Shown here: piece by piece, positions 1 through 59,313 of the stretch | How positions within the stretch are numbered: the first letter of the stretch is position 1 | Layout: each line of letters opens with the position of its first letter | Virus record (IMG/VR): IMGVR_UViG_3300035670_000060 | Coordinates: 1-64,000 of that record | DNA length: 64,000 nucleotides | Source of the DNA: a virus | Reading direction: 5' to 3' (one strand) | The notes under the pieces: generated by a model | What the model was told of the DNA's origin: nothing | Seen by the model: only the letters and a program-made list of their open reading frames with translations | Databases searched by the model: none | Program-made: the position numbers and the translations under genes

Positions 1-25
1 AAAATCTTCATCTAGCAGTAGATGT

Positions 26-331
26 TTAAGTATCTTGCTTTCGATCCGCATTCTCTTTTTCTTTCTCAATTTGTGATTCAAGAATTGATAATACTACATC
101 ACCCATCATCTTGTCAAAGTCTTTTTTATCCGATTCATTGAGAGTTTTTTCATAATCACCGATTGTATTGTACTCAAAATGAAGTATCGCTTCTTCACCA
201 GTTTCTTCTACATTCATTACGCCAAAATAAAATTTAACACCATCATGTATACCACTAATCAATTCTAAAACTGCGGTATTGGCTACGGTATGATCATAGT
301 CGGTAACTCGATAGTCAACATTAATCTTCAT
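26..331 (-). CDS. Hypothetical protein downstream of uvsX
   Basis: A 101-residue acidic protein that I do not recognise. An upstream in-frame extension is open, but I place the start at the ATG at 331 (MKINVDYR), which has a purine-rich site (GAGGAAGAAGAGC) directly before it and overlaps the uvsX stop by 11 bases. The protein has a mixed beta/alpha look and a charged C-terminal helix ([19 protein letters not shown]). There are no membrane segments and no catalytic motif I can name. The overlap with uvsX suggests translational coupling and an accessory role in the recombination operon, but that is inference. Confidence 0.7.
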
Positions 332-1373
332 GCTCTTCTTCCTCAGGTGGTTGTTCAAATTGGCCATACAAGAATTCTTTCTTGCATACTTCATCAATCA
401 TATCCAGGAGTTCTTTCGTCCAGTATTTTTCAGGGTTGTCATTGATTGATTTACCAAAGACTTTTGTGCCGTCTGGTAATTCATATCGTGTGGATACTTT
501 CTTGATAATGTTATACTTTTCTGCAATGTCAAGAAGCCCGTAGTATCGATCCAACCCTTTGTCATAGGTAATTTTGACTTCCACATCTTTATTCTCCTTA
601 GTCAATCGGCTTTTATACAACCTAGCCTTTACAATGTTACCAATCACTTCAGTTCCATCTTTCTCTTTTTTCTTTGAAAGATATACAATCGTCGATGCGG
701 TATACTTTAGACCAGAACCACCAGACATTTCTTTAGTTGGTACATAAGCACCAACAACATCATACACATGATTTGTTACAATTAATGGTACGTTAATTTT
801 AGCAAGTTTCAAATTCAGTACACGAAATGTAGCCTTAATCAATTGTGATTTAGTCATGTCTCGTGTTTCTTTACCCTCCGAACTATCTTCCATTTCTTTG
901 GTTGAAGATAATTGGCCTTGAGAATCAAGCACCATCATCATCGGTTTACGTTTATCTTTTGATTGCGCTGCATACTTATCAATGATTTGCAATGCGGTAT
1001 GCCTAAACTTTTGAATGGTATCTGGTTCTGATATGACGATTCGTTTGGTATCAATGCCTCTTGATTCCATCATATGTTTTGTAACTGCTGCTTCAGTGTC
1101 AAAGTAAATCACACCACCTTCTGGATTATCATCAAGAAACTGTTTGACTACACCTAAAACAAAGAATGTTTTACCTGTCGCTGATTCACCAGCAAATGCT
1201 GTTACTTTGTTATTAGGTACGCCGCCATATATACTGCCGCTGAGTAGACCATTAAGTGCATAAGACCCGGTGTCGATGCAACCCGTATACTCAGCACTAG
1301 CACCTCCATCAGCAAGAATTTTAGTGTCTTCATCTTTCAACTGCTCCACTAACGTTGTAAAAAAATTACTCAT
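321..1373 (-). CDS. uvsX: UvsX, RecA-like recombinase
   Basis: A 350-residue strand-exchange ATPase of the T4 UvsX type. It forms presynaptic filaments on single-stranded DNA during recombination-dependent replication and repair. The Walker A loop GESATGKT is at residues 62-69, followed by a Walker B-like strand ([10 protein letters not shown]) and the L1/L2 loop region with TNHVYDVVG and EMSGGSGL. The C terminus is very acidic (PPEEEEHED), as in RecA-family proteins where that tail tunes DNA access. Its partners in this window are UvsY (24951-25388) and UvsW. The start lies 2 bases from the stop of the upstream membrane-protein gene, so it is probably co-transcribed. The family assignment is secure. 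Confidence 0.95.
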
Positions 1374-1375
1374 AA

Positions 1376-2116
1376 CTAATCTCCAAATTTTGTAACATTC
1401 TTTAGTTGATTTTCATCCATTGCTATGGGTTCAATTGTTGTCACACCAGCGTTGGTAATTCTCAATGTGTGATTTGCAGCAATCAATAGCAGAATGGCTA
1501 AAGGATCAAATACACATATTAACATAATAATGATCCACTGTACAGATTTTTCTATCGTATCGAAATCATTCTTATCATATATCAATTCAGCAACATATCG
1601 AATTGCACCAATTTCAGCATTACCTTTATTCTTGGCTTCACGAAGTGGTAAAATCTCTTTCGTTAAGGTTTCAATCTTGTTTTGCGACTCAGTGATCTGT
1701 CTTTCCAATTTTTGGTTGGGTTGAGCATATCCTTCAGATTGCTTGAGTAAAATCGCCAATCGATTTTTTTCGATAGATAATCGTTCGTTAAGGCTATCGA
1801 TTCTGGTAGTGTTCGTAACATAGTCCACACCGGAACCAGAATGAGACTGAGACAAATAGCCAAAAATACCAAGACTAGTAATAATACTGAGAATGATAAC
1901 AGTAGCAGTGAAGTAAATCCGCATAGTAAGGTGAATACTGTGCCAATACCGATAGAGAAAAGACGCAGTGACAAGTTTGCCAATTTCAAGTGAGCCTCCC
2001 ATAATTGCAATTGCGATTGGACTTGCTGTAAAGATTGATATCAATCCTACAATAGAAAAGTATGCTGCAACCGCTGATATACCTACAGCGGTAAAAAATA
2101 GAAGAAGTGTGAACAT
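1376..2116 (-). CDS. Predicted multi-pass membrane protein
   Basis: A 246-residue membrane protein of unknown role. Three hydrophobic segments lie near the N terminus (about residues 3-30, 34-55 and 66-88). A charged, coiled-coil-like stretch follows (about 95-160, with [18 protein letters not shown]), and a fourth segment (about 190-215, [19 protein letters not shown]) comes before a short tail. The coiled region between TM3 and TM4 would lie on one side of the membrane. It sits between uvsX and a small coiled-coil gene in the replication operon, so it could be an early host-interaction or membrane-attachment protein, which is inference only. No signal peptide cleavage site is evident. Confidence 0.75.
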
Positions 2117-2514
2117 TATCGTGTCAGTGATAACACACGGTCAATTTGTTCTTGAATTTTTTCTTTTCGATTTGGCCAATAGATATATTCTTTATCAGGA
2201 TTCTTCATGAGATTAACCAACAAAGGCATGATAAGTTTTTCAAGTTCATTTAGTCTACTCTTAACATCATCTTGCATTTGCTTTCGTTCAGCATCAAGCC
2301 CTAATTTACCATCATTGTATAATGATAAAATTTGATCCATCTTCGCTTCAATTCTTGCAACTGTTTCATTTGATGTTGATACAGCTTCACGTATGACTGT
2401 AGTTTCTAAAGTATTTGGATCGGTGATTTGCTTAACTTCACTTTCATCTACTGCACTAAAACCAAAATCTTCCGATGTTCTAATTCCTAGATACTCTTGT
2501 GGTATGGTACTCAT
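2116..2514 (-). CDS. Hypothetical coiled-coil protein
   Basis: A 132-residue unrecognised protein. The N-terminal half is polar and the C-terminal half is a predicted long helix with heptad-like spacing (residues about 45-100). It ends in a basic segment (WPNRKEKIQEQIDRVLSLTR). The start overlaps the stop of the polymerase C-terminal gene by 4 bases (ATGA), and its own last base is shared with the next gene's start, so it is embedded in a tightly coupled operon from gene 43 to uvsX. No enzymatic motif is visible. Confidence 0.7.
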   Translation of the reverse strand: MSTIPQEYLGIRTSEDFGFSAVDESEVKQITDPNTLETTVIREAVSTSNETVARIEAKMDQILSLYNDGKLGLDAERKQMQDDVKSRLNELEKLIMPLLVNLMKNPDKEYIYWPNRKEKIQEQIDRVLSLTR

Positions 2515-3596
2515 GCGAAAAAACTCTCCAATGTCGCAACTGGTTCTGTGTTCCAGTTAATAGTTGAAATAACATTACGCAATGGTTCAACAAATGTTTT
2601 ATCAAACTGCGTATCATAATCAATATAAATTTCAAAACCAAATTCTTTGGGAAGTACCGTCGGAATCGACAGCACATTCTCTTGAAATGGATTAGGCGTT
2701 TTCATGTAGCAGAATTTAATCTTTTCACCTTCTTTGATTGTTTGATACTTCTTTGTCAGTTTGTGCTTTTCTAACAAATGATTATAGACAAGTGCGCCAC
2801 GAACATGAATTGGTGTTCCTTTTACATAAAGATCCTTTGCGTCACGATATTTAGTTAGACCAGAAACACCTCTAGGAAATGCAACATCTTCAAATGATAG
2901 TGAATGAAACTCAGTTCTAAAGTTTGCAATGTAGTCTTGCAATTCGGATTCATCACCTTTCATTACAATCTTTAGAGCGTCTTTAATTTTATCACGGCAC
3001 ACAGCGGGCGTTGAAGACTTGACTGCTTCAATACCCAGGATCTTCATTTTTGGTTCAGCAAAGCGAACACCTTCAGAATCGTAGACGTTTAGAATGTAAT
3101 GCTTCTTACCAGTCCAGATACCTTTGTCTGCAATGACTTCACGCTTCATTTGCATTTTCTGGTCAAATGCATTCATATAATTTTTAAGTTCTTCGTATGA
3201 TTTATCTATGAAGGGTTCAATCTTCGCATCACACGCACGATTTAACAAGTCAACAATTTCATTTGTTGATTTATCTGGCCATACTTTTTCAACAAGAGGA
3301 CCAAGATTGAGATATATTGAATCTGTGTCGGCTGCTATGACGTAATCTATACCATTTGTTTTCAACAGTTTATTCATAAACTCGTTAAGTTTATTTTCTA
3401 TCCATCGAATAGACAATTGACCTGATAGCGTAATAGCTTCGGCTTGACGAATATCAAAAAATCGAAAGTATTGATTACCAAGGGCACCGTAAGCGGAGTT
3501 CAGTTGCACTTTTTTCGCTAACTGTAGATTTTTATACTTTGATATATTTTTGATCAGTTCTTCTTTTCGCTTTAGAAGTTGCTCTTTTTCAGACAT
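2511..3596 (-). CDS. 43B: DNA polymerase, C-terminal part (split gp43, fingers-palm-thumb)
   Basis: The downstream half of a T4-type family B DNA polymerase, 361 residues from the ATG at 3596. It carries motif B (AKKVQLNSAYGALG, about residues 27-40), motif C (AADTDSIYL, catalytic aspartates 90 and 92), the KKxY-type motif GKKHYIL and the thumb. It ends in LESFFA, a good sliding-clamp-binding tail. Motif A and the 3'-5' exonuclease are missing because they lie in the gene at 4098-5537. The start overlaps the oxygenase stop (ATGTCTGA) and has no clear ribosome-binding site, so I infer termination-reinitiation. The first 25 residues are a charged helix that would cap the fingers. The two proteins must assemble to give an active enzyme. 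Confidence 0.93.
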   Translation of the reverse strand: MSEKEQLLKRKEELIKNISKYKNLQLAKKVQLNSAYGALGNQYFRFFDIRQAEAITLSGQLSIRWIENKLNEFMNKLLKTNGIDYVIAADTDSIYLNLGPLVEKVWPDKSTNEIVDLLNRACDAKIEPFIDKSYEELKNYMNAFDQKMQMKREVIADKGIWTGKKHYILNVYDSEGVRFAEPKMKILGIEAVKSSTPAVCRDKIKDALKIVMKGDESELQDYIANFRTEFHSLSFEDVAFPRGVSGLTKYRDAKDLYVKGTPIHVRGALVYNHLLEKHKLTKKYQTIKEGEKIKFCYMKTPNPFQENVLSIPTVLPKEFGFEIYIDYDTQFDKTFVEPLRNVISTINWNTEPVATLESFFA

Positions 3597-4101
3597 AATG
3601 GAAGTATGTGCTTGCAATGTATTTTGGTTTAGATGTTGGCTTGAGACCTTCATGTGGCAAAAACCACATTGGAGGAAACACTAGTATATTACCACACTCA
3701 GCATTAAAAGTCAATACTTCATCTTCTGGTAAGTAGAATTTGGTACCAGCTTCATTATCATTTAAGTAAATTAGAAATGAAAGATATCGAGTACAGGTTT
3801 CCATACCGGCAACATCAACATGCAAAGGAAATGAATGTATATTTGGTGTATAACGTTTAATTCTGATACCTTCTATTCTACGTTTTTTTGGTAATAAAGA
3901 AAATTTATCGTAAATAGAACAGTAATGATTTGCTAAGTCTTTACATATACCAATGATATCAGCAGACTCTTTTTCCCAGTGAACAATCTCTAACTGGTCA
4001 AACATATCATAACTTTTATCAAGTTCTTTTTCTGATTCGAACTTATCGATTAGATAGTCACAGAAATACTGTGGTAAAATTTTTTCGTATAACTGAATCA
4101 T
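3589..4101 (-). CDS. 2OG-Fe(II) dioxygenase (prolyl-4-hydroxylase-like) between the polymerase halves
   Basis: A 170-residue iron and 2-oxoglutarate-dependent oxygenase of the P4H type. The metal-binding triad reads His94-x-Asp96 (PLHVDVAG) and His150 (FLPHEGLKP), with Lys158/Lys160 in the usual 2-oxoglutarate-binding position. The core strands RYLSFLIYLND, AGTKFYL and GNILVFPP are typical of the double-stranded beta-helix. Length is normal for phage members, and no residue of the triad is missing. Its ATG overlaps the stop of the polymerase N-terminal gene (ATGA), and its TGA overlaps the start of the C-terminal gene, so it is translated between the two halves. The substrate is unknown; protein side chains or modified bases are both possible. 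Confidence 0.88.
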   Translation of the reverse strand: MIQLYEKILPQYFCDYLIDKFESEKELDKSYDMFDQLEIVHWEKESADIIGICKDLANHYCSIYDKFSLLPKKRRIEGIRIKRYTPNIHSFPLHVDVAGMETCTRYLSFLIYLNDNEAGTKFYLPEDEVLTFNAECGNILVFPPMWFLPHEGLKPTSKPKYIASTYFHYV

Positions 4102-5537
4102 AGAGCATTCAACTTTTCATTTATTAGTTCAAGTTCTTTTTGACATTCAATCATAAGTCTTTTATACTTAGACCTATCATTATACATTGTTTCCATCATT
4201 TCAGGTAAAAAGCCCTGTGCATCTCTTCGAAATAAATGACCGTTTGCAGCCATGCAATGTTCACCATGATAAGTTTTTTCATGATTCAATAAATTATCAA
4301 CAGTTATATTATAATGTTCACCATCAATGATAGTATCTGGGCTGATGTTGTATTGCATAATCAAATGTGGATATAGACTGTTTAAATCAAACGAAACAAC
4401 CCAGTCATACATACCAACAATTGGTTCTTTTACATAACCGCCAGCATACTGTGCGTCTTTACTTGTATTAACCTTTTGTGGTACAACAATCTTTTTATCC
4501 ATCAGATGGTTATGTATCAACGTATCCCACATTCGTACCTGAGTAAATACATCCGTGATATTTACTTTTGCGTCATATGCAAGAGCCAATACCATTTCAA
4601 TTAACTTCATCTTATCTTCAAGTCTATCAACTAATTCAACATCTTTGATGTTGTATTCAATAAACTTTTGATGATTTAATTTATATAACTGATGGAGACT
4701 CTCGTACTCGGAGTAGTCAAGTTTCTTTTCACCAAGTTCAACATTAGCAATATGATCAAGTCTGTACGCTTCTTGTTGCGAATATGTAAATTTCCTGTAC
4801 ATCTCTAAGTAATCAAGCGTAGCAATACCTGTGAGTTCAAATACGGTTTGTGATTTGCCTGAAATGGTTGTAGTTCTTTCACCAATAAGTTTCCATGGTG
4901 AAAGTCTTTTTGCAGTTGCTTCACCAAACAATCGATATATTCTATTGTACAAATATGGTATGTCAAAGAATTGAATATTCCAGCCTGTAATGATATCTGG
5001 TGCAGTCATCTCCCATTCTTCGAGAAAGCGAAGAACCAATGATGATTCGTCTTTACATTTTTGATACCATACATCATCACGACGATTATTAAAATCACCT
5101 AAACCAAATACTTGAATTTTATTATCGCATTTGAACGTAATAGCCGTGATCGGTTCAACAGCATCAGCTGGTTCAGGAAAACCATTCTCTGAGCCAACTT
5201 CAATATCAATGTTTGCAATTTTAATTAGGGATGGATCATAGTCTACTTTACCAGGATAAGTTTCATTGATATAAGCGTAAGCATACTGTGTAGTGCCGTA
5301 AACTTTGAAGTTTTTAACCTCTTCATACTTACTTATAAATTCAGCAGCATCACGCATGGTACCTTGCTTCACAGGTGAAACAAAGTAGCCCTCAATGGTA
5401 CGATAATCAGTTTTGGTTCGTGATGGTATGTAAAGTGTTGGATTGTATTCAATTTTATCTTTGAATCGTTTACCATTCTCATAACCACGAACAAGAATCT
5501 GATTACCGTGTCTTGCAAAGTTTGTATAGAATTTCAT
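4098..5537 (-). CDS. 43A: DNA polymerase, N-terminal part (split gp43, exonuclease and palm motif A)
   Basis: The upstream half of the T4-type family B replicative polymerase, 479 residues. The exonuclease is complete: Asp111-x-Glu113 (NIDIEVGSE), ExoII GWNIQFFD (185-192) and ExoIII YNIKD (295-299). Palm motif A is SFDLNSLYPHL, with the catalytic Asp at 384. The protein stops after MYNDRSKYKRLMIECQKELE and a few more residues, in the fingers helix before motif B, which is encoded at 2511-3596. The two halves add to 840 residues, a normal length for gp43 of this group. The start shares a base with the stop of the LSm-like gene (TAATG). Nothing indicates decay, so this looks like a functional split. 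Confidence 0.94.
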   Translation of the reverse strand: MKFYTNFARHGNQILVRGYENGKRFKDKIEYNPTLYIPSRTKTDYRTIEGYFVSPVKQGTMRDAAEFISKYEEVKNFKVYGTTQYAYAYINETYPGKVDYDPSLIKIANIDIEVGSENGFPEPADAVEPITAITFKCDNKIQVFGLGDFNNRRDDVWYQKCKDESSLVLRFLEEWEMTAPDIITGWNIQFFDIPYLYNRIYRLFGEATAKRLSPWKLIGERTTTISGKSQTVFELTGIATLDYLEMYRKFTYSQQEAYRLDHIANVELGEKKLDYSEYESLHQLYKLNHQKFIEYNIKDVELVDRLEDKMKLIEMVLALAYDAKVNITDVFTQVRMWDTLIHNHLMDKKIVVPQKVNTSKDAQYAGGYVKEPIVGMYDWVVSFDLNSLYPHLIMQYNISPDTIIDGEHYNITVDNLLNHEKTYHGEHCMAANGHLFRRDAQGFLPEMMETMYNDRSKYKRLMIECQKELELINEKLNAL

Positions 5538-5833
5538 TATGTTATCAATTTACCTTGTGCAACCACTATTCCTGAACCATAAATCTCATTATACTTGTTT
5601 TGGATATCAATTGCAACACTCACATCAAATATAACATGTTGTCGGTTTATTTTTACAATCTTTTGTTCAGAAAAAAACAGCATTGGTTGCATGTTCAATG
5701 CAGGCTTACCAGATTGTGTCATAGCAAGCCCAAGCGTACATGGATTTTCTATCGTATAATGGTTTGCATCTTCACTTGTAATGTCGCCAACAACTTCTTC
5801 ACCCGTTAATAATCTTAGAATTCTGAGGGCCAT
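5537..5833 (-). CDS. LSm-like small beta-barrel protein (paralogue of 23100-23474)
   Basis: A 98-residue protein predicted to be nearly all beta. It opens with RILRLLTGEEVVGDI and continues with alternating short strands, ending in GSGIVVAQGKLIT. The opening pattern (hydrophobic strand, turn with TGEE, V-G-D-I strand) resembles Sm/LSm-like barrels found in T4-like marine phages. The second small protein at 23100-23474 starts the same way (VRLIKLTTSDDLLAEVI). The start at 5833 lies inside the upstream gene and has the site GGAAGGA. It could bind RNA or act as a small oligomer next to the polymerase, but I cannot assign a function. The fold call is tentative. Confidence 0.75.
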   Translation of the reverse strand: MALRILRLLTGEEVVGDITSEDANHYTIENPCTLGLAMTQSGKPALNMQPMLFFSEQKIVKINRQHVIFDVSVAIDIQNKYNEIYGSGIVVAQGKLIT

Positions 5834-6011
5834 GATGTTTTCCTTCCGTCAAATAAATTTGGTCTTTTACTTTGAGTTTTTTCTTTTTGAGTTCACTGAT
5901 TGCTTCATAATATTTTTGAGGATCCATTTCAAGAATGGATATTGCTTTATCTAATTGTAAATGCTCATTGCGGAGATGCTCAAGGTATTCGTCATATTGC
6001 TGCTGTGTCAT
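5799..6011 (-). CDS. Small coiled-coil protein, DUF465/YdcH-like
   Basis: A 70-residue helical protein. Its pattern (YLEHLRNEHLQLDKAISILE, then a KKKKLKVKDQI helix) matches the bacterial DUF465/YdcH type: a helix with HxxLD, a short loop after the D-P pair, and a second helix with LK-x-KLxxKDxI. The last 15 residues are extra. It overlaps the LSm-like gene by 35 bases. DUF465 members are small cytoplasmic proteins of unknown function, frequent in proteobacteria, so this may be host-derived. A terminator lies just upstream (6050-6070), so this gene should begin a new transcript or be reached by read-through. Confidence 0.7.
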   Translation of the reverse strand: MTQQQYDEYLEHLRNEHLQLDKAISILEMDPQKYYEAISELKKKKLKVKDQIYLTEGKHHGPQNSKIING

Positions 6012-6049
6012 ATCAGTCTCCTCTGGTGGTTAATGACAACAGTATGTAT

Positions 6050-6070
6050 AACAAAGGGCCCGAAGGCCCT
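6050..6070 (-). terminator. Rho-independent terminator with UUCG loop
   Basis: On the minus strand AGGGCC-TTCG-GGCCCT forms a perfect 6-bp stem closed by a UUCG tetraloop, followed by TTGTTATA. It lies just downstream of the 39-residue gene and would end the hsp20 transcript before the polymerase operon. Confidence 0.8.
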
Positions 6071-6076
6071 CTGAAA

Positions 6077-6196
6077 TCACTTCATCATAATTTCTTTAGC
6101 TTCTTTGATTCTACCATATCTTGTAGCGATTGCTGCTGCTCTTGCTTCACCGATAAGTTCAAGCCAAGATATAAATTTGTGCCAATATTGTTTCAT
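6077..6196 (-). CDS. Small helical protein (39 residues)
   Basis: A 39-residue reading frame with a good site (AGAGGTG) and a start that overlaps the stop of the previous small gene (ATGA). The product begins MKQYWHKFISWLELIGEARA and ends GRIKEAKEIMMK. It is one amphipathic helix with an Ala-Arg core followed by a second short helix. Small proteins with this W-x-E-x-x-G-x-A-R-A-A pattern occur in proteobacteria and their phages, but I know no function. It sits between a DUF3563-like gene and a terminator, so it is the last gene of the hsp20 transcript. Confidence 0.65.
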   Translation of the reverse strand: MKQYWHKFISWLELIGEARAAAIATRYGRIKEAKEIMMK

Positions 6197-6333
6197 AGCA
6201 CACCTCTATGCTTGAGTTGATTTTCTCTGTAAGCAAAGTCTGCTCTATCTACAGATTTAGCTAAGTATGATTCGATATAGTTTCTGGATGCCTTCACAAA
6301 GTAGTCACTGATGATCTTAAAGATTGGTATCAT
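6193..6333 (-). CDS. DUF3563-like small protein (46 residues)
   Basis: A 46-residue product whose centre, SYLAKSVDRADFAYRENQL, fits the DUF3563 pattern (Y-L-A-x-S-x-D-x-x-D-x-x-x-R). This short family is mostly known from proteobacterial chromosomes and has unknown function. The N terminus is a hydrophobic helix (MIPIFKIISDYF). The reading frame starts inside the end of hsp20 (17-base overlap) and ends in ATGA with the next small gene, so three genes are translationally linked. The tight packing and clear match make it a likely real gene despite its size. Confidence 0.7.
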   Translation of the reverse strand: MIPIFKIISDYFVKASRNYIESYLAKSVDRADFAYRENQLKHRGVL

Positions 6334-6805
6334 TTTCACTCAAAAATTGTCTTTTTGAAGTTTTAGATTCACCGTTCTTTACTTCAATCTTGCGAGGCTT
6401 CTTATGCTCAGGAATAATTCTGTCTAGAGCAATTTTCAACATACCGTTAACCATTTCAGCATTATCGATAACAATCTGATCATCAAGTGCAAAAGTGCGT
6501 GTGAATGCACGATTAGCAATTCCCTTGAACAGGAAATTATCTGTATCGTCATGCGTTTTGCCTGATACGATTAGTTTATTATCTTCAAATGTGATTTCAA
6601 CATCGGAAGTGGAGAAACCTGCAATTGCAAGTTCGATAACGTATTTGTTATCGTCTACTTTGCGAATGTTGTATGGAGGATAGTTTGGAATGTTTTTTGT
6701 GATATCATCATGTAATTTTGACAGCCTATTGTAAGTGTCATCAAAGCCGACAAAGAATTTATCGAAGTCTTTAAATGCGGCTGGTAGTTGTGGTACAAAT
6801 GTCAT
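6317..6805 (-). CDS. hsp20: Hsp20 family small heat shock protein
   Basis: A 162-residue small heat shock protein. The alpha-crystallin domain spans about residues 45-140: YVIELAIAGFSTSDVEITFE, then LIVSGK, and the closing strand GMLKIALDRIIP. A C-terminal I-x-V contact motif (KIEV) is followed by a polar tail. It is an ATP-independent holdase that keeps unfolding proteins soluble, and marine T4-like phages often carry it. The start has the site AAAGGAGAACGAT and follows a terminator, so it probably has its own promoter in the hairpin-rich region upstream. DUF3563-like and 39-residue genes follow in the same transcript. Confidence 0.92.
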   Translation of the reverse strand: MTFVPQLPAAFKDFDKFFVGFDDTYNRLSKLHDDITKNIPNYPPYNIRKVDDNKYVIELAIAGFSTSDVEITFEDNKLIVSGKTHDDTDNFLFKGIANRAFTRTFALDDQIVIDNAEMVNGMLKIALDRIIPEHKKPRKIEVKNGESKTSKRQFLSENDTNL

Positions 6806-6833
6806 ATCGTTCTCCTTTATTAAGCGAGGTTAA

Positions 6834-6860
6834 AAAATTGCCAACCCATAAGGCGTTGGC
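6834..6860 (-). terminator. Rho-independent terminator upstream of hsp20
   Basis: The minus strand reads GCCAAC-(9 nt)-GTTGGC and then AATTTTTTAACC, a 6-bp stem with a U tract. It would stop transcripts coming from the HTH and 49-residue genes. The loop is somewhat long. Confidence 0.7.
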
Positions 6861-6861
6861 A

Positions 6862-6915
6862 CCAGTGGATATTTGAATAGCCTTCACTGGCATGCTATTT
6901 CCCATCCCGATGGGA
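6862..6915 (-). other. Two additional inverted repeats next to the terminator
   Basis: CCAGTG (6862-6867) pairs with CACTGG (6885-6890), and TCCCAT (6900-6905) pairs with ATGGGA (6910-6915). With the terminator this makes three hairpins in about 80 bases between the 49-residue gene and hsp20. The second and third lack U tracts, so they may be mRNA-end stabilisers or protein-binding sites. Confidence 0.55.
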
Positions 6916-6924
6916 TAAAACTAT

Positions 6925-7074
6925 TTAGAAAAATCTTTTAAGAATTTCGTTGGTTTGTTCTTGAATTTGTTTGTGCTGATCAATGATTTTTGCTTCTTGT
7001 TCAACAATTTCAGTTGCTTGATCGAATGCTGTCACTTCATCTGCGCTTGGTAGTTTATTTAAATCGATAGTCAT
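6925..7074 (-). CDS. Small coiled-coil protein (49 residues)
   Basis: A 49-residue acidic-to-basic helical protein beginning MTIDLNKLPSADEV and containing FDQATEIVEQEAKIIDQ, with clear heptad spacing up to LKRFF at its end. The start ATG at 7074 follows AAAAAGGATTGAACT, a usable ribosome-binding site. It fills what would otherwise be a 290-base gap. I do not recognise a family; a small dimeric helix is the only structural statement possible. The hairpins and terminator at 6834-6915 follow it directly. Confidence 0.6.
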   Translation of the reverse strand: MTIDLNKLPSADEVTAFDQATEIVEQEAKIIDQHKQIQEQTNEILKRFF

Positions 7075-7095
7075 AGTTCAATCCTTTTTAAAAAA

Positions 7096-7323
7096 TTATT
7101 TAAATGATGCTTTTTTGCGAGATACCAAATAAGTTGTATTGCCTCTCTTATTTGTTCCACGGCTAACAGTGAAACCTTCTTTTCTAATTTCACTCATGCG
7201 AGCACTTAGATTTTTTACACCAAAACGTGCTTCAGCTTGAGGACCAGAAATGGTCCTACCAGTGTCACACAAGTAAGAAATTAAAAGTTCTTTCTGACTC
7301 TTATCAGATTTTGTCATTGCCAT
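7096..7323 (-). CDS. Small helix-turn-helix protein (HTH_39-like)
   Basis: A 75-residue predicted DNA-binding protein. QKELLISYLCDTGRTISGPQ is the first helix pair, ARFGVKNLSARMSEIRKEGF is the recognition region, and VSRGTNKRGNTTYLV forms a small wing. The pattern (Leu-x-x-Tyr-Leu, Gly, then L-S-A-R-x-x-x-I-R-x-x-G) agrees with the HTH_39 domain common in phages. The start follows GGAGATTTAAAT. It may be an early regulator, since it lies between RegA and hsp20 beside a strong sigma70-type promoter unit. The target is unknown. Confidence 0.75.
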   Translation of the reverse strand: MAMTKSDKSQKELLISYLCDTGRTISGPQAEARFGVKNLSARMSEIRKEGFTVSRGTNKRGNTTYLVSRKKASFK

Positions 7324-7362
7324 ATTTAAATCTCCATCAAAATGAATAACGAATGCTAAAAA

Positions 7363-7620
7363 TTATTTTTTAGCTGCTGGTTCAGCGGGTTTTGCTTCCG
7401 CTGCTTTTTTAGCTTCAGCCTCTGCTTTGCGTTCTTCCGGACGCTTCACTTTTGGCTTTGCTTTCTCGTCAGCCTTAGCGTCTGCTTTAGGAGCATTCGC
7501 TTTTGCTGCTGGAGCCGGTGCTGCTGCAGGTGTCGCCGACGCTGCTGGCGCTTTTGGTGCATCTGCTGCAAAAACTGTAAAAGGGACTGCGAATAATAAA
7601 ACTGCTAATGCTTTCTTCAT
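7363..7620 (-). CDS. Secreted/periplasmic Ala-Pro-Lys-rich protein
   Basis: An 85-residue protein with a textbook signal peptide (MKKALAVLLFAVPFTVFAAD, cleavage expected after AFA/A). A low-complexity chain of Ala, Pro, Lys and Glu follows, ending KPAEPAAKK. The mature part would be an extended, positively charged, disordered periplasmic peptide. The base composition is unlike its neighbours: 7501-7560 is 39/60 G+C. Such proteins are common in proteobacterial genomes and rare in T4-like phages, so acquisition from the host is likely (inference). It has its own strong sigma70-like promoter (7652-7680) and an AAGGAG site. It could act in superinfection control or envelope alteration. Confidence 0.8.
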   Translation of the reverse strand: MKKALAVLLFAVPFTVFAADAPKAPAASATPAAAPAPAAKANAPKADAKADEKAKPKVKRPEERKAEAEAKKAAEAKPAEPAAKK

Positions 7621-7651
7621 TTAAGACTCCTTTTGTTTTGAATAGAGATAC

Positions 7652-7680
7652 AGTATCTCATACTATTTAACGCATGTCAA
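7652..7680 (-). promoter_or_regulatory. Sigma70-like promoter of the signal-peptide gene
   Basis: Minus strand: -35 TTGACA (7680-7675), 17-base spacer ending in TGA, and -10 GATACT (7657-7652). The -35 is perfect and the -10 is of the extended TGn type. It lies 32 bases before the start at 7620. Confidence 0.75.
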
Positions 7681-7699
7681 GACATTTCGTTGACAGGAA

Positions 7700-8104
7700 T
7701 TAAGATATTTTTTTCTTACCTATGTTATACTTAGTAGTAAGTTGCCATTCATCACGTTCTTTATGTGAGATGATTTTGATTTGTGATAATGGTGCTGTGA
7801 TTTCTTTTGCTTGTTCATGCTTTACGATTTCAATAAGACCCCATTCTTCTAAAAGATTTGCTATAGTGTTTCTACGACCCATATCATTATCAGTAAAGTC
7901 GGTAGGTTTACCATCTAATGCAAATAATTCTTTAAAGTGTACCACATAATATTTACCTTTTTTGTGTAGGATATGGCAAGACTGATAAAGCGTTCTATCT
8001 TTTCTGGATGCTACACCAATTCGTGTAAGTGTTTCACGCACTTTAAGAAAATCGTCCTCTTGCTTAAGTCTCACCTCCAATAAATCATCGATGTTAACTG
8101 CCAT
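7700..8104 (-). CDS. regA: RegA translational repressor
   Basis: A 134-residue homologue of T4 RegA, the RNA-binding protein that represses translation of early messages at their start regions. Diagnostic stretches are KVRETLTRIGVASRKDRTLY, SCHILHKKGKYYVVHFKEL, RRNTIANLLEEWGLIEIV and the end EWQLTTKYNIG, all collinear with T4 RegA. It lies directly downstream of gene 62, in the T4 order 45-44-62-regA, here interrupted only by small extra genes. Its targets in T4 include replication mRNAs, and many of the early genes here are candidates. Confidence 0.95.
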   Translation of the reverse strand: MAVNIDDLLEVRLKQEDDFLKVRETLTRIGVASRKDRTLYQSCHILHKKGKYYVVHFKELFALDGKPTDFTDNDMGRRNTIANLLEEWGLIEIVKHEQAKEITAPLSQIKIISHKERDEWQLTTKYNIGKKKIS

Positions 8105-8105
8105 T

Positions 8106-8495
8106 TCATTTCTCCTTACTTTTCAAACCACCTTTTTCTAGTTTTAACTTCATCTGGTGAATTTGTTCTTCCGTGAAGAGATTCATTACATCTTTAGCCT
8201 TGGTGTAACTATATCCAAAGTATTGAGAAATCACTTCAACGGTGTCAATTTTTTCACTCTTTAACCATTTGCTATACCGCTTTTTTGGTCTGATGCTATT
8301 TAGTAAATAGAGAAATTGTGCCTTTGATTCTAGGAAATGATACCGATTCATCTCATTAGCATAGAGAATCGTATCAGGAAAGAATGACAGTCCACGATTG
8401 ACAATGAATGGTGCGTATGCTTTTTCGGATGGTTCATCAACAATCAGATTTTCTTTTGTCTGATTGATAGCATTAATAAAGTCAAATGGTGTCAT
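8106..8495 (-). CDS. 62: gp62, clamp-loader small subunit
   Basis: A 129-residue small subunit of the sliding-clamp loader, which with four gp44 subunits opens the gp45 clamp. It begins MTPFDFINAINQTKENLI and has the conserved YAPFIVNRGLSFFPDTI and MNRYHFLESKAQFLYL segments. It is shorter than T4 gp62 (187 residues), which is usual for marine T4-like phages. It sits immediately upstream of regA, and its start is 2 bases from the stop of the PD-(D/E)XK-like gene. Confidence 0.9.
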   Translation of the reverse strand: MTPFDFINAINQTKENLIVDEPSEKAYAPFIVNRGLSFFPDTILYANEMNRYHFLESKAQFLYLLNSIRPKKRYSKWLKSEKIDTVEVISQYFGYSYTKAKDVMNLFTEEQIHQMKLKLEKGGLKSKEK

Positions 8496-8496
8496 G

Positions 8497-8967
8497 TTAG
8501 TAATTGGATGTGGTATACTTCATCATTTCATTGATAACAGAATCTTGTACTTTATGTATCGGCACCACTGCATCCTGTTCAATAGGCACCAATGCCATCT
8601 CATCAATCCATCCATTGGATCTGGTAACTTTTCTAACTCTGTACTTGAATGTATTTTCAATTCTAAACAACCAGCCACTCCATCTATACTTATACTTCGG
8701 TGCAGGAATTGTAACGTAATAAAATTCATCTACACTTCTACATTTCATCAACTGACTTTTCTTAAATGCAATTGCACCTTCGGTAATAAATGGTGTACCG
8801 ACTTTGACTTCAACTGTCTTATCGTCAGCCATCAAGTCTTTTTCGGAGTCAAAGTTGTCTAATGAAAATTGAACTTTGCGATTCTCAGCAAGATAATTAC
8901 CAACATACTTCTCACCCATCTTGCCAAGAATCTCAATCTTTTGTTCTCTTGTTAGTGGTGCTCTCAT
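8497..8967 (-). CDS. Restriction-endonuclease-fold (PD-(D/E)XK-like) protein between gp62 and gp44
   Basis: A 156-residue protein with a possible nuclease core: an N-terminal helix with Glu (GKMGEKYVGNYL), then DNFDSEKDLMADDKTVEVKV, where Asp and the E-V-K triplet match the D...ExK signature of PD-(D/E)XK enzymes, followed by KKSQLMKC. The C-terminal half is mostly strands. It separates genes 62 and 44, which are adjacent in T4, and overlaps gene 44 by 4 bases, so it is part of the clamp-loader operon. A DNA-repair or Holliday-junction type nuclease is a reasonable guess; it could also be a catalytically inactive relative. Confidence 0.7.
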   Translation of the reverse strand: MRAPLTREQKIEILGKMGEKYVGNYLAENRKVQFSLDNFDSEKDLMADDKTVEVKVGTPFITEGAIAFKKSQLMKCRSVDEFYYVTIPAPKYKYRWSGWLFRIENTFKYRVRKVTRSNGWIDEMALVPIEQDAVVPIHKVQDSVINEMMKYTTSNY

Positions 8968-9905
8968 GATTTAAACTCACAATCAGCCATGACTTGCGTC
9001 AAAAATGCAACCAGATTAATTTCTTGGTCTGCTACAAATGCTGCTTTGTATTGATAGTCAGCAAGATATAAAATCAGTTGCGGTATAGAATTCGGTGTCA
9101 ATGCATCATTAGCACCATCAAAGATTTGTCGAAAGATTGCTTGTGGTTCATTATCTAAATTCTCAACAACCCACTTACGCATACCAGAAAAGTTCTTATC
9201 TTTCAATTGCTTGAATAGATCCTTGATGTTTGCATTTGCTACACTTGTTAGAATGCCTGCATCAATCTTACCTGTGACTGAGTACCGCTGCAATTCATTT
9301 AGCACACGGCGCCAATCAGGAAGATACTTCATGATCATTTCAGCAACAACTGCTTTATCATATTCAACGTTCTCTTTTTTGAGAATGTCTTCAACTCGCT
9401 TGATAAATTGAACAGCTAACTTCTTCTTGTTACCATTGACAATCTTAAAATGAACAACTGAACACCGACTGTGAAGTGGTGTAATGATCCGATTGACATA
9501 ATTACAAGTGAGAATGAAACCACAATTTGAAGAGAATTCTTCCATGAAGTTTCGAAGTGCTGGTTGAGTAGACTGAGGATTCAGATAATCAGCTTCATCA
9601 AGTATAACATACTTCCTACCACCAACAAATGAAATAGTAGATGCATAGTTTTTAATTTCATTGCGAAGTGTATCAATGTTACCATTCATACTACCATTGA
9701 TAATGATATAGTCTGCACCAATTTCATCAAGCATGGCCCTAGCAACGGTTGTTTTGCCAACACCAGGACCACCTGCTAGAATGAGATTCGGTACGTTTTT
9801 GGTATTGACAAACTCTTGAAAGGTTGCTTTCAGATCCGCAGGAAGAATGGTATCTTCAACAGTCTTTGGTCGATACTTCTCGACCCATAAAAAATCTTCA
9901 CGCAT
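8964..9905 (-). CDS. 44: gp44, clamp-loader large subunit (AAA+ ATPase)
   Basis: A 313-residue AAA+ ATPase that loads gp45 onto primed DNA. Walker A GGPGVGKT is at 45-52, Walker B is KYVILDEADYL, and the SRC box reads HSRCSVVHF. The C-terminal collar follows. The N terminus FLWVEKYRPKTVEDTI is typical of clamp loaders. Its length equals that of T4 gp44. The upstream region holds an extended -10 promoter (9929-9957), so genes 44, the nuclease-like gene, 62 and regA may form one early transcript in addition to read-through from gene 45. Confidence 0.96.
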   Translation of the reverse strand: MREDFLWVEKYRPKTVEDTILPADLKATFQEFVNTKNVPNLILAGGPGVGKTTVARAMLDEIGADYIIINGSMNGNIDTLRNEIKNYASTISFVGGRKYVILDEADYLNPQSTQPALRNFMEEFSSNCGFILTCNYVNRIITPLHSRCSVVHFKIVNGNKKKLAVQFIKRVEDILKKENVEYDKAVVAEMIMKYLPDWRRVLNELQRYSVTGKIDAGILTSVANANIKDLFKQLKDKNFSGMRKWVVENLDNEPQAIFRQIFDGANDALTPNSIPQLILYLADYQYKAAFVADQEINLVAFLTQVMADCEFKS

Positions 9906-9928
9906 AACTTCTCCATAATAAAAATAAC

Positions 9929-9957
9929 ATTATATCACTTCGTGACGGATTCGTAAA
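9929..9957 (-). promoter_or_regulatory. Extended -10 promoter before gene 44
   Basis: Minus strand: TTTACG (9957-9952), 17 bases, then TATAAT (9934-9929) preceded by TGA, an extended -10. The -35 is weak. It overlaps the end of the DsbA-like gene, 24 bases before the gene 44 start. Confidence 0.5.
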
Positions 9958-10192
9958 GAGTCTCCAAGTCTTGTTGATCCTGTTGTACCTGATTGAAGTT
10001 TTGCTTATGAAAAACTTTAGCCAATCTGCGAGTGTATTTCTTCTTGATTTTGTAATTGTCTTCAACGGTTTGAAGAATATCTTTAATCAAGTCTCGTTCA
10101 GCCTCCATGCGAGTCAGACTGTCCGAGATTTCTTGTAACGCTTGGCGAATTTTTTTCTTGTCTTCTGGTGAAGATGGTACGACTACGCTCAT
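9935..10192 (-). CDS. dsbA: DsbA-like double-stranded DNA-binding protein
   Basis: An 85-residue helical basic/acidic protein. The C-terminal half (KDILQTVEDNYKIKKKYTRR then LAKVFHKQN and DLETLYESV) lines up with T4 DsbA (KDI...RLLALYHKDN...VVELYDTV), a small DNA-binding protein that modulates late promoters. The N-terminal helix (KKIRQALQEISDSLTRMEAE) is more divergent. In T4 dsbA lies near gene 33, whereas here it is between genes 45 and 44, which fits a role with the clamp-dependent late transcription machinery. The assignment rests on my memory of the T4 sequence, so it should be checked by profile search. Confidence 0.65.
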   Translation of the reverse strand: MSVVVPSSPEDKKKIRQALQEISDSLTRMEAERDLIKDILQTVEDNYKIKKKYTRRLAKVFHKQNFNQVQQDQQDLETLYESVTK

Positions 10193-10866
10193 GCTTCATA
10201 CCTCGATCCAGGTTCCATTGCAACCCAATACTCAAGTGTTGGTGAAACAAAATGTGCGATGCCTTTTGAAGATGCACTAACAGCATAATCACTCGGAATC
10301 AATTTGATGTTACCGACACTAAATGTAAATCGGAAGTCTGCTGTAGTCTCACCAACTTCTTGTGAGTATGTATCAGAGCCATCGTTCTTACTATCAACTG
10401 CTGCTAACGTAATCTTAGACCTATCACCAACGATTGCAATGTGAGGCAAACCAAGAATGCCTGCAAGTTTCAATACTTGTATCAATGCATCTTTCTTTAA
10501 TGTGAACTGGACTTCTGCACTTGAAACTTTAATGTCTTTGTCTGGTGCTGCTACAATCATTGATTCATCAGTCAATCGATATACCAATTTAGATGAGTCG
10601 GACTGAATCACTGCACTTCCTGCTGAACCGTCACCAGTCTTCTTGATTGTGATATCAGGTTTGTCTAGTGAACTAACGACAGATAAAAATCGATTCAAAT
10701 CATAGATACAAAATTCATCTACGATTGCATCAGGAATGGTTGCTTTACCTACTACGGCTTTCTGCGCTGAAATTACCCTCAACAAATTGCCTTTGCGGAA
10801 CATCATACCCGTGTTGATTGTCGAAAAGTTTTTCAGAACCTCTAATGTCTTGTCGCTCAATTTCAT
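10189..10866 (-). CDS. 45: gp45, sliding clamp
   Basis: A 225-residue processivity clamp that forms a trimeric ring around DNA. It tethers the split polymerase (its LESFFA tail fits the clamp pocket) and serves as mobile activator of late transcription with gp55. It begins MKLSDKTLEVLKNFSTINTG like T4 gp45. Two related halves are visible, with EVQFTLKKDALIQVLKLAGI opening the second. The start ATG at 10866 and its site GGAGAAGTGAAGA lie inside the reading frame of the DUF3310-like gene, which runs on for another 122 bases. Confidence 0.95.
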   Translation of the reverse strand: MKLSDKTLEVLKNFSTINTGMMFRKGNLLRVISAQKAVVGKATIPDAIVDEFCIYDLNRFLSVVSSLDKPDITIKKTGDGSAGSAVIQSDSSKLVYRLTDESMIVAAPDKDIKVSSAEVQFTLKKDALIQVLKLAGILGLPHIAIVGDRSKITLAAVDSKNDGSDTYSQEVGETTADFRFTFSVGNIKLIPSDYAVSASSKGIAHFVSPTLEYWVAMEPGSRYEA

Positions 10867-11149
10867 TCTTCACTTCTCCATAAAATTTATCATGTATATA
10901 AACCATCATAATAGCATAATGTATAACTTTAAGCAAGTCTTTTCGATTCCTACCTCCTTTCTTACCATATCGCTGTGCATATTTCATTACATTACCAATA
11001 GTAAAACCTTCACCGTGACCACAGTCAATAATGAACTCAGTCGCCTGAAATTGGTTTTGTGAATAGTGTTCACCGTAGGTCGCTTCGATATAAGTCTCAA
11101 GTTCTTTTAGAATTCGAGGCTCATCATACTTATACGGCAAATTCTTCAT
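10745..11149 (-). CDS. DUF3310-like protein overlapping gene 45
   Basis: A 134-residue protein whose core EGFTIGNVMKYAQRYGKKGG followed by RKDLLKVIHYAIMM is the DUF3310 signature (G-N-V-x-K-Y-x-x-R-Y ... DL-x-K-x-x-Y), a family common in phages and possibly nucleotide-related. The recognised domain ends at about residue 95. The remaining 40 residues are encoded in a region that also encodes the first 41 codons of gp45 in another frame, a 122-base overlap, unusual even for this compact genome. The start overlaps the glycosyltransferase stop by 4 bases. Confidence 0.75.
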   Translation of the reverse strand: MKNLPYKYDEPRILKELETYIEATYGEHYSQNQFQATEFIIDCGHGEGFTIGNVMKYAQRYGKKGGRNRKDLLKVIHYAIMMVYIHDKFYGEVKNEIERQDIRGSEKLFDNQHGYDVPQRQFVEGNFSAESRSR

Positions 11150-11982
11150 CGTTTTGGTGCTGTTTTAGATGCGGTTGGAGATGCGCCGACTGCTGCTAAC
11201 GCTGATAGAGAACCGCCCCATGTATACGAACCAGTGTGTTTTAATTCAAGCCATGGTAACATCCAAACTTTCAATCCAGATTTTCTTGCATACTGACAAA
11301 ACATGTAGTCTTCAGATAGATATCGCTTTGATTCAGGATCTATAACACAATCGAAGAATGCCATAATTTCTCGACTACCATCGAATGCTTTGGTACGTAC
11401 ATGATCTGGTTTGTATGATCGCTCAGGATAATCTTGCGACATTTTTTCAAATACATTTTTTCGAATCAACATGAATCCAGTACCGCCTTCTTTTACTTCA
11501 GCAGGTTCATTCAATGGAATTCGTTCAGTGCCATCCACGGGATTGAATACATAGTCGCCTGTAAAGTTTTCGAGAATGAGAGGATCCTTATCAGCAAAGC
11601 CTTTGTCTACCGCAGACTTTACTTTCTCCCACGATATAGCCTTCTTAGGATATGGTCCGCATACAATATCTTTATCTTCTCCTTCAGAATAGTGAAGCAT
11701 TACCAAAACGTCTTGGGCTGCAAATGTGATATCACTATCAATGAAAAGTAGGTGAGTGTAATCACTACGAATAAATTCGTCGGCTAAGTAATTTCTGGCT
11801 CGTGTGATGAGTGATTCATTGAACATGAAAAACAATTTACATTCAATTTTGTATCGAGTGCATAGTACCATTAAGTCAGCAATAGATTTGGTATAACCTC
11901 CGTAACATTGACCGCCATACATTGGCGTTGCAACGAAAAGTTTTTTGTCTCTCATTTTTTCTAGATCAATCGATATTTCCAT
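11146..11982 (-). CDS. GT-A fold glycosyltransferase
   Basis: A 278-residue family 2-like glycosyltransferase. The N-terminal Rossmann part starts KLFVATPMYGGQCYGGYTKS, and the DxD-type metal site is LLFIDSDITF. A conserved GGTGFMLIRKNVFEKM and SEDYMFCQYARKSG complete the acceptor side (ED/xxD catalytic region). The last 25 residues (GGSLSALAAVGASPTASKTA) are a low-complexity tail. It is clearly related to the protein at 58587-59249 (same ATP-x-x opening, FxxNESLxTxARN, FIDxDxxW/F). It may glycosylate virion proteins, surface sugars or DNA. It is preceded by a strong terminator, so it starts a transcript that continues into gene 45. Confidence 0.85.
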   Translation of the reverse strand: MEISIDLEKMRDKKLFVATPMYGGQCYGGYTKSIADLMVLCTRYKIECKLFFMFNESLITRARNYLADEFIRSDYTHLLFIDSDITFAAQDVLVMLHYSEGEDKDIVCGPYPKKAISWEKVKSAVDKGFADKDPLILENFTGDYVFNPVDGTERIPLNEPAEVKEGGTGFMLIRKNVFEKMSQDYPERSYKPDHVRTKAFDGSREIMAFFDCVIDPESKRYLSEDYMFCQYARKSGLKVWMLPWLELKHTGSYTWGGSLSALAAVGASPTASKTAPKR

Positions 11983-12021
11983 GATAACTCCATAATAATG
12001 TTATTGTAATATTATATATGC

Positions 12022-33027: not shown

Positions 33028-36000
33028 TTAACCAAAAATCATTGCCATTGCAATGCTCTTACCTGTAGTTATGCCACCACCACCACCGCCAGATAACAGT
33101 GAACCGTTAACATATATTCCTGTGTCGTTTACGCAAATTCTTTGACATGTTCCAGCATAAATTGCTACAATGTTTTGTAGTCCGGAAGTTCCTGCCCAGT
33201 TTCCAATAATTGTATTATTAGATCCTGTCGTGACCGAAAATCCTGCATCTGAACCAAAGAAATTATTATGAATGCCAGTGGTGTTAGAGTAACCAGCATA
33301 ATTACCAATGAAAATATTACAACTACCAGTGGTGTTAGAGAAACCAGCACGATTACCAGCAAAGAAGTTATGACTGCCAGCGGTGTTATTTAAACCAGCA
33401 AATCGACCTAAGAAATTATTGTTAGAGCCAGTGGTGTTACAGCAACCAGCACTGTTACCAAAAAAGTTATTATGACATCCAGTGGTGTTAGAGAAACCAG
33501 CACGATTACCAAAGAAATTATTATAACAGCCAGTGGTGTTGCAGTGACCAGCAAAAACACCAATGAAATTATTATTACTGCCAGTGGTGTTGTTGTAACC
33601 AGCAAAACCACCAATGAAATTATTACAACTGCCAGTGGTGTTAGCACGACCAGCAGTTGCACCGAAGAAATTATTATAACTGCCAGTGGTGTTAAAGTAA
33701 CCAGCACCGTTACCAAAGAAATTATTAGAAAAGCCAGTGGTATTGCCATAACCAGCACTTGAACCAATGAAATTATTAAAATATCCAGTGGTGTTAGCAG
33801 CACCAGCAGCATTACCAATGAAATTATTGTTAGAGCCAGTGGTGTTACAGCAACCAGCATTGTTACCAATGAAATTATTATGACATCCAGTGGTGTTAGA
33901 GAAACCAGCACGATTACCAAAGAAATTATTATAACAGCCAGTGGTGTTAGAGCAACCAGCATAATGGCCAAAAAAAGTATTATGACTGCCAGTGGTGTTA
34001 AAGTAACCAGCACTACGACCAAAGAAGTTATTATATGCACCAGTTGTGTTACAACGACCAGTATAGCGACCAAAGAAAGTATTAGCGAAAGCAGTTGTGT
34101 TTGCCGCACCAGCACCAAATCCGAAAAAGTTATTATAACGACCAGTGGTGTTATTACGACCAGCAAATTGACCAATGAAATTATTATGACTGCCAGTGAT
34201 GTTAAAGTGACCAGCACAGAAACCAGCAAAGAAGTTATAAGTACCAGTGGTGTTACACAAACCAGCACATGCACCAATAAAAGTATTATGACTGCCAGTG
34301 GTGTTAAAGCGACCAGCACACAAACCTGCAAAGAAGTTATTACTACCAGTGCTATTGGCTAAACCAGCACTGTTACCGAAGAAATTGTTATAACAGCCAG
34401 AATTCGAATAACCAGCAAAATGACCAAACATATTATTATTACAACCAGTAATGCTAAGAAAACCAGCATAGCGACCAAAGACATTATTATGACAGCCAGT
34501 GGTGTTACTGCGACCAGCTTGATTACCAAAAAAGTTATTATAACAACCAGTGGTGTTAAGACGACCAGCAGCTAGACCAAAGAAATTATTAAAACTGCCA
34601 GTGGTGTTACTGCAACCAGCACTTTGACCAAAGAAATTATTACTAGAGCCAGTGGTGTTACGAAAACCACTATTACATCCTAAAAAATTATTAAAAGTGC
34701 CTGTGGTGTTAGCAAAACCTGAAGAAAAACCTGCAAAGAAGTTATGACATCCAGTGGTGTTACAGTAACCAGCATTGTTACCAAAGAAATTATTATTAGC
34801 GCCAGTGGTGTTATAGTAACCAGCACGATTACCAATGAAAACATTATTATTGCCAGTGGTGTTAGAGTAACCAGCATAAACACCAATGAAAACATTATGG
34901 CAGCCAGTGGTATTACAGTAACCAGCATTTAGACCAAAGAAATTATTATAACAGCCAGTGGTCATATAGCGACCAGCAGATGAACCAAAGACATTATTAT
35001 ACCTGCCAGTGGTGTTATTACATCCACTGGTGACACCAAAGAAATTATTGTTACTGCCAGTGGTGTTACATAGACCAGCACCACGACCAAAGAAATTATT
35101 AAAAGTGCCAGTGGTATTGTTGCGACCAGCATTGCAACCAAAGAAATTATTATTACTGCCAGTGGTGTTACATAGACCAGCAAATAAACCAAAGAAATTA
35201 TTAAAACAGCCAGTGGTGTTACTGCGACCAGCACATGAACCAAAGAAATTATTACTACAGCCAGTGGTGTTACATAGACCAGCAAACAAACCAAAGAAAT
35301 TATTATTACTGCCAGAGGTATTGCTATAACCTGCACATAAACCAAAGAAAATATTAGAACTGCCAAGCGTGTTAGACCTTCCCGCTTGATTACCTATAAA
35401 AATATTATTGGAGACGGTGGTATTGGAATAACCAGCACAATTACCAGCAAAGAAGTTATGACTTCCCGTAGAATTACTATAGCCTGTACGATTGCCTATG
35501 AAAATATTATTACTACCGATTGTATTATTATAGCCTGTATTGAAACCAAAAAAATTATTATCATTTCCAGATGTATTGTATCGACCCGTTTCAGCGCCAA
35601 TAAAATTGTTATTGATACCTGTGGTATTATTTCCGCCGGCCCAAGCACCAATAAAATTGTTACAATTACCCGTCGTATTGTAATAGCCAGCAAGAGGACC
35701 AAAGAAATTATTATAAGTGCCTGTGGTATTACATGTTCCAGCAAAATATCCAAAAAAATTATTACAGCCGCCAGTTGTATTACTACTACCAGCATCACGA
35801 CCAAAGAAATTATTATAACCACCAGTGGTATTGCAGGCACCAGTACATTGACCAGCAAAGAAGTTACCACTGCCAGTGGTGTTTTTGAAACCAGCACTGT
35901 TACCAAAGAAGTTATTATGAGATCCTGTGGTGTTATAGGAACCAACTTGGTAACCAATGAAATTATTGTGACAGCCAGTGGTGTTACAGTAACCAGCATT

Positions 36001-59284: not shown

Positions 59285-59313
59285 ATTGTATATATTGTCA
59301 CATAAAATGTCAA
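59285..59313 (-). promoter_or_regulatory. Sigma70-like promoter of the glycosyltransferase-sulfotransferase operon
   Basis: Minus strand: TTGACA (59313-59308), 17-base spacer, TACAAT (59290-59285). Consensus 6/6 and 5/6. It overlaps the stop codon of the giant fibre gene and lies 36 bases before the start at 59249. Confidence 0.75.

Follow-up and report, generated by a model that had tools for sequence, protein, structure and literature searches.

Genes essential for replication are generally held to resist being broken up, and the splits of such genes that are known to us have been attributed to homing endonucleases. How, then, could the replicative DNA polymerase gene of a virus come to lie in two parts around the gene of an enzyme? 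The question is raised by the virus record IMGVR_UViG_3300035670_000060 (113,653 bp), of which positions 1–64,000, hereafter the window, were analysed. On its minus strand a T4-type gene 43 is divided into an N-half and a C-half, and a 2-oxoglutarate (2OG)-Fe(II) oxygenase gene stands in the gap. This arrangement had been reported in an earlier reading made from the sequence only, and open reading frames (ORFs), phmmer and PHROGs bear it out. We propose that the polymerase works as two polypeptides and that the split was imported, with the oxygenase as a passenger, on a cassette from an already split phage; we put the probability of this explanation at roughly 0.8.

A polymerase in two parts

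The exonuclease motifs (DIE, D192, D299) and palm motif A (D384) are located in the N-half, and motif B (KKVQLNSAYGALGN) and motif C (D90-T-D92) in the C-half, exactly as the sequence-only reading had placed them. No catalytic motif is missing, and with the exonuclease and palm motifs A, B and C all present across the halves, the pair belongs to the T4-type gp43 proteins (family B DNA polymerases). In phmmer comparison with RB69 gp43 the N-half covers residues 3–503 and the C-half residues 555–899; on the full-length gp43 family of PHROGs, phrog_262, they cover 7–496 and 498–851, respectively. PHROGs also has families of their own for the separate halves (phrog_2062 and phrog_1918), so split forms of gp43 are not rare. 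Aligned with the split polymerase of Aeromonas phage 44RR, the N-half matches 43A up to residue 491 of 498 and the C-half matches 43B from residue 24. The break, correctly described in the earlier reading as one in the fingers of the Aeromonas kind with an enzyme gene and not an endonuclease gene in the gap, coincides with that of 44RR and separates the two fingers helices, as in split gp43A/gp43B.

An AlphaFold model of the fused polymerase of a near relative, L002 (relatives are cited by locus number), has a mean predicted local distance difference test score (pLDDT) of 76 and a predicted template modelling score of 0.58, and it matches the RB69 gp43 fold with a template modelling score (TM) of 0.82. 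It contains two long helices (443–471 and 475–506), and the insertion site falls in the turn between them; judged by the model, the cassette would replace this turn and the adjoining ends of the fingers helices. Comparison of the junctions shows that the N-half of the window ends with the first fingers helix followed by a new tail, CQKELELINEKLNAL, and that the C-half begins with a new head, MSEKEQLLKRKEELIKN. These ends would lengthen the fingers helices. The earlier suggestion that the halves end and begin in helices able to associate is plausible in the light of the modelled helices of the fused relative, and contact between the two polypeptides would be made by the palm and by both fingers helices.

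The ratio of nonsynonymous to synonymous substitution rates (dN/dS) between the window and L002 is 0.036 for the N-half and 0.066 for the C-half. These values are close to those between the fused L002 and L003 (0.058 and 0.075), so selection constrains the split polymerase to a normal degree. Ratios this low (0.04–0.07) argue that both halves work. Two-subunit activity of the window halves is likely, because gp43A and gp43B have been reported to co-purify and polymerise (PMC2988022).

Fused relatives and the origin of the junction

The closest IMG/VR polymerases, L002, L003 and L228, are single ORFs of 832–834 aa without the gap oxygenase. On the two sides of the junction DNA identity to the window is 88.6% and 87.4% for L002 and 83.0% and 85.3% for L003; L228 is 89.7% identical over 4134–6927 and 93.3% over 1–3541. 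Between the breakpoints the window has 592 bp as compared to 54 bp in L228 (3973–4026), which points to a sharp allelic replacement within the fingers tip. The junction tails of the window resemble those of split phages (EAQKELEEVN.QLKEL / MSEK.ELLKRK), the closest being the ends of L254 (IQAQKELEKVNERLAQL / MSEKEQLLLKKEQLLKD); the linker of the fused relatives, WQKKKE..KTPEDKFECDKQ, is unlike either the tail or the head of the window.

The polymerase core tree groups the window with the fused L002 and L003, and the oxygenase tree groups it with L254, both with support of 98–100. Approximately unbiased (AU) tests reject three groupings: on the polymerase, a clade of the window and L254 (p = 6e-74) and one of the window and every near split phage that bears an oxygenase (p = 5e-37); on the oxygenase, a clade that unites the other split phages and excludes the window (p = 6e-4). 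Together with the affinity of the polymerase core to the fused relatives and of the oxygenase and tails to L254, these rejections argue for horizontal exchange as the most likely history, in which a cassette of junction and oxygenase displaced the fingers tip of an intact gene. Since the near-identical relatives are unsplit, the split would be recent in the window lineage and would have arrived jointly with the oxygenase. It would not have formed in place: a module of N-half tail, oxygenase gene and C-half head would have come from a related phage with a split gene 43; through homologous exchange within the conserved helices on either side, it would have taken the place of some 54 bp at the tip of the fingers. 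Three samples contain fused as well as split relatives, 3300012012 (L002, L163), 3300042465 (L026, L105) and 3300023179 (L004, L166), so exchange partners coexist.

The gap oxygenases do not collectively form one clade (p = 0.024), and those of L067 and L175 look like a separate capture. Ratios of oxygenase to polymerase divergence, compared as a measure of vertical versus horizontal descent, reveal these two oxygenases as unusually similar and are otherwise not decisive. Base composition is uninformative, with GC contents of 32% for the oxygenase and 34–36% for neighbouring genes. Within the C-half, positions 2700–3200 contain blocks of 94–98% DNA identity to L003 in a gene otherwise 71–84% identical, a sign of further recombination within gene 43.

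Table 1. Features of the window and contents of the polymerase gap in relatives.
Feature	Position	Strand	Description
Gene 43 N-half (gp43A-like)	4098..5537	-	479 aa; N-terminal part, 3'-5' exonuclease, first palm part with motif A
2OG-Fe(II) oxygenase, prolyl-4-hydroxylase-like, between polymerase halves	3589..4101	-	170 aa; H94, D96, H150, K160
Gene 43 C-half (gp43B-like)	2511..3596	-	361 aa; second fingers helix, motif B, palm motif C, thumb, C-terminal tail
Overlap of oxygenase and C-half	3589..3596	-	8 bases, ATGTCTGA; C-half start interleaved with oxygenase stop
Putative transferred cassette, 592 bp	3542..4133	-	N-half tail, oxygenase and C-half head; from blastn breakpoints and alignment
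Membrane protein gene downstream of C-half	1376..2116	-	52% homologue inside the L065 polymerase gap
uvsX-like recombinase, same replication cluster	321..1373	-	Same oxygenase family adjoins uvsX in other phages
L177 gap	1774-2328		Probable GIY-YIG homing endonuclease (phrog_314, E=3e-7) adjoining the 90-aa protein
L080 gap	3679-4419		HAD-type, phosphomannomutase-like phosphatase
L049 gap			Another 2OG-oxygenase-like protein; weak PF13640 match, under cut-off
L065 gap			Membrane protein, 52% identical to window gene 1376-2116
L050 gap			Tail-chaperone-like ORF
Empty gap in split relatives			L044, L047, L092, L093, L183, L189
Contigs with complete N-half/oxygenase/C-half order			L082, L254, L255, L104, L257, L258, L259, L260, L163, L164, L105, L166, L167, L168, L169, L170, L171, L067, L175

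Farther along the window, 33028–39393 and 59310–63839 encode very large structural proteins (2121 and 1509 aa) that match the same virion/tail-spike PHROGs.

A recurrent slot for cargo

The 232 relative loci examined by one script (not deduplicated by contig) comprise 160 fused, 65 split and 7 incomplete polymerases. On a tree of 80 polymerase cores, built with the junction omitted, the starred branches give at least 8 changes between the split and fused states, and 4 for the state with the oxygenase in the gap. The three-gene order of the window, which the sequence-only reading had proposed to look for in related phages, is complete in 19 IMG/VR contigs (Table 1) and cut by the contig end in 3 further ones (L172, L173, L261). 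Some of the 19 represent one and the same phage recovered from different samples, L082 being that of the window itself.

Most often the gap of split relatives is occupied by a conserved 90-aa protein (e.g., L048:5732-5998) with the pattern GDVVxVVTxAGEFVGK..., which has no Pfam or PHROG match and only weak, 28% relatives in Methylophilales phages Melnitz. BLAST gives no support for a relationship of the 90-aa protein of L048 and its kin to window 5537–5833. Other gaps hold various genes or none (Table 1). Cargo differs even between close pairs, namely L049/L154 (91% polymerase identity), L177/L041 (85%) and L175/L187 (81%), and L097, a 79% relative of the phosphatase-bearing L080, has a fused polymerase. 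Cargo may be recruited from neighbouring genes, because the protein in the L065 gap has its homologue in a gene normally downstream of gene 43.

The polymerase gap thus appears to be a recurrent cargo slot. A broader proposal, to which we give even odds, is that the fingers-tip split is a transmissible module: allelic replacement would turn an intact polymerase gene into the two-gene form, the cargo (oxygenases, phosphatase, membrane protein, nuclease) would be interchangeable, the cassette would not need an endonuclease of its own, and the essential gene would serve as a protected landing site for auxiliary genes.

The oxygenase: passenger or partner

The completeness of the oxygenase and its HxD...H triad, noted earlier from the sequence, are upheld by a match to PF13640 and by the invariance of H94-x-D96, H150 and K160 in seven gap sequences. 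K160, which we take to be the 2OG-binding Lys, stands ten residues past the second His, the spacing of prolyl-4-hydroxylases (P4H). The AlphaFold model (pLDDT 85) is predicted to have a double-stranded beta-helix fold of the P4H type, and its top matches in a PDB fold search are 5c5t (viral P4H) and 4j25/4iw3 (P. putida P4H), with TM of about 0.67. The P. putida enzyme of 4iw3 was crystallised with EF-Tu, so a protein substrate is the natural guess for the oxygenase, a phage or host protein being the likeliest.

The overlap with the N-half comprises 4 bases, ATGA. Both this and the 8-base overlap with the C-half, which the earlier reading had given correctly, are kept in L104, L105, L166 and L254, where the ATGTCTGA overlap is identical. 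The C-half reading frame is open upstream as far as 3653; the conserved start is at 3596. The oxygenase would be a passenger, a protein hydroxylase of the P4H type that is co-transcribed with the polymerase halves, probably coupled to them in translation through the two overlaps, and shielded from loss by its position inside an essential gene pair.

It might instead have been placed or kept between the halves to modify the polymerase or another replication protein in the complex. Its relatives of at least 56% identity are found only in the polymerase gap, 43% relatives (L262 and others) stand directly after an unsplit gene 43, and many relatives of 35–39% lie within about 300 bp of uvsX, as do those of isolates. 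However, other split relatives have unrelated cargo or none, fused relatives work without the oxygenase, and the oxygenases of L265 and L271 have neither polymerase nor uvsX nearby; such a role in the complex seems unlikely to us. The sequence-only reading had suggested selection for action beside the polymerase. In other phages the family also occurs directly after intact gene 43 or beside uvsX, so that action beside the polymerase would not necessarily require the split.

L002 has a different 2OG-Fe(II) oxygenase (PF13640) at 5058–5660, between the membrane gene and uvsX, with no BLAST similarity to the window oxygenase. The DNA alignment of L228 and the window is continuous over 1–3541, so this second oxygenase is absent from both. 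Within one replication cluster, oxygenases appear to be gained and lost at two sites.

Alternative histories of the locus

An explanation weaker than cassette transfer holds that the split with its oxygenase was ancestral to the window genus and the L104/L254 group, and that L002, L003 and L228 lost the oxygenase and re-fused their polymerase. Polymerase divergence between the window and L104 is comparable with that of the oxygenase, and the deep polymerase branches are not resolved, both of which accord with such a history. It would nevertheless require re-fusion in many fused lineages, L002, L003 and L228 have mutually homologous linkers, similar to those of L031, L036 and L039, and the window and L254 are sisters by oxygenase and far apart by polymerase. 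We regard it as improbable.

Cassette transfer has several points to its disadvantage as well. The weakness of the deep polymerase branches leaves formal room for an ancestral split with re-fusion. Even the nearest sampled relative of the window oxygenase, that of L254, is no more than 69% identical to it, so the actual donor is unseen among the sampled phages. One tree strongly joins the window to L002 and leaves L003 outside, a point left open by two other analyses, and no recombinase or homing endonuclease that explains the transfer was found near the junction. As for the source, recent direct transfer from the L104 group is ruled out, its oxygenases being just 57–59% identical and that of L254 nearer.

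A third possibility, that the 592-bp segment is removed or skipped to give one polymerase chain, either as an intron or by translational bypass as in T4 gene 60, is very improbable. Introns are known in gene 43 of phages 25 and JSE (PMC2993671), yet an Rfam search of window 1–12000 found no intron (group I/II) or other RNA family. The segment holds a conserved enzyme gene with intact catalytic residues that overlaps the genes on both sides, and each half has a stop or start of its own together with a helical extension that the fused proteins lack; the missing Rfam match and the conserved ORF with its own overlaps lead us to reject intron and bypass alike. Finally, an assembly error or a chimera of two phages, conceivable for a metagenomic record, has a negligible chance, since a second record (L082, contig 3300034073_002164) is 100% identical across 6.1 kb (window 1908–8008) the order, seen in 19 contigs, recurs with its overlaps in divergent contigs from many samples, and there are no frameshifts.

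Significance

Because a split gp43 was already on record for Aeromonas phages 44RR and 25, the novelty does not lie in the split. It lies in the enzyme carried as cargo, in intact relatives so nearly identical that the transfer becomes apparent, and in the variety of cargo found in a single slot. Literature searches on split gene 43, which mostly did not reach subscription journals, found no paper with an enzyme gene in the gap. The interpretation given in the sequence-only reading is partly supported; it could not show the unsplit near-identical relatives or the other cargo genes of the gap.

With fused and split alleles existing side by side at roughly 90% DNA identity, the transition can be put to the test. 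The questions opened are whether the cassette alone is sufficient to turn an intact polymerase into a two-subunit one, what the split costs, and whether auxiliary genes benefit from a place inside an essential pair. The locus also marks a point at which nature has divided the fingers of a replicative family B polymerase, and a split plus its passenger gene appears to travel between viruses as one unit.

Comparison with known systems

Essential phage genes split by homing endonuclease genes (HEGs) include Aeh1 nrdA/mobE and T4 gene 39/60/mobA (PMC2988022), and HEG islands have been described (PMC10448857). As in these cases, an essential gene of the window is split around another gene and its function would be kept by two polypeptides; the insert, however, is an oxygenase and not a nuclease. 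No match to GIY-YIG or HNH_3, the two HEG families searched, was found in the window record, which may be incomplete. The earlier proposal that an ancient endonuclease was replaced may be right in view of the GIY-YIG-type HEG in the L177 gap; the window itself shows no trace of one.

Phage 2OG-Fe(II) oxygenases of phrog_61, common in T4-like cyanophages beside uvsX, belong to the same family and the same replication cluster as the window oxygenase. Unlike them, the latter lies within gene 43, and the gap clade is distinct, with a best identity of 69%. In the OM43 phages MEP401/402 a family A polymerase is split, and the authors suspected an intron (PMC10580990). There, too, the replicative polymerase consists of two ORFs around a small gene, but the polymerase family is unrelated.

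Four isolates share with the window a split gene 43 and non-polymerase genes in the gap. Synechococcus phage ACG-2014f has two small genes there. In Acinetobacter phage AB2I3 (L244) gp43A is separated from gp43B by 3 kb with small hypothetical genes, nine in all. Pectobacterium phage POP12 has a single hypothetical gene, and Aeromonas phage Aes517 (L243) a truncated GIY-YIG gene and a small gene. Their cargo is either unknown or a nuclease, with no enzyme identified, in contrast to the window. In Aes517 gene 43 is in three pieces, 43B itself being interrupted by a putative split intein that flanks a VSR-like endonuclease.

The nearest parallel is the split gene 43 of Aeromonas phages 44RR and 25 (Petrov, Ratnayaka and Karam 2010, via PMC2988022), whose gp43A/gp43B reportedly co-purifies and is active. 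The sequence-only reading had the Aeromonas halves separated by a homing endonuclease; this is true of phage 25, whereas the gap of 44RR is a short untranslated spacer (PMC2988022), with 49 nt between 43A and 43B. The window shares with them the polymerase family (B), the position of the cut at the tip of the fingers and the resulting pair of parts. It differs from both phages in that an enzyme gene occupies the gap and that near-identical relatives are unsplit, so that the split becomes visible as a probable recent transfer.

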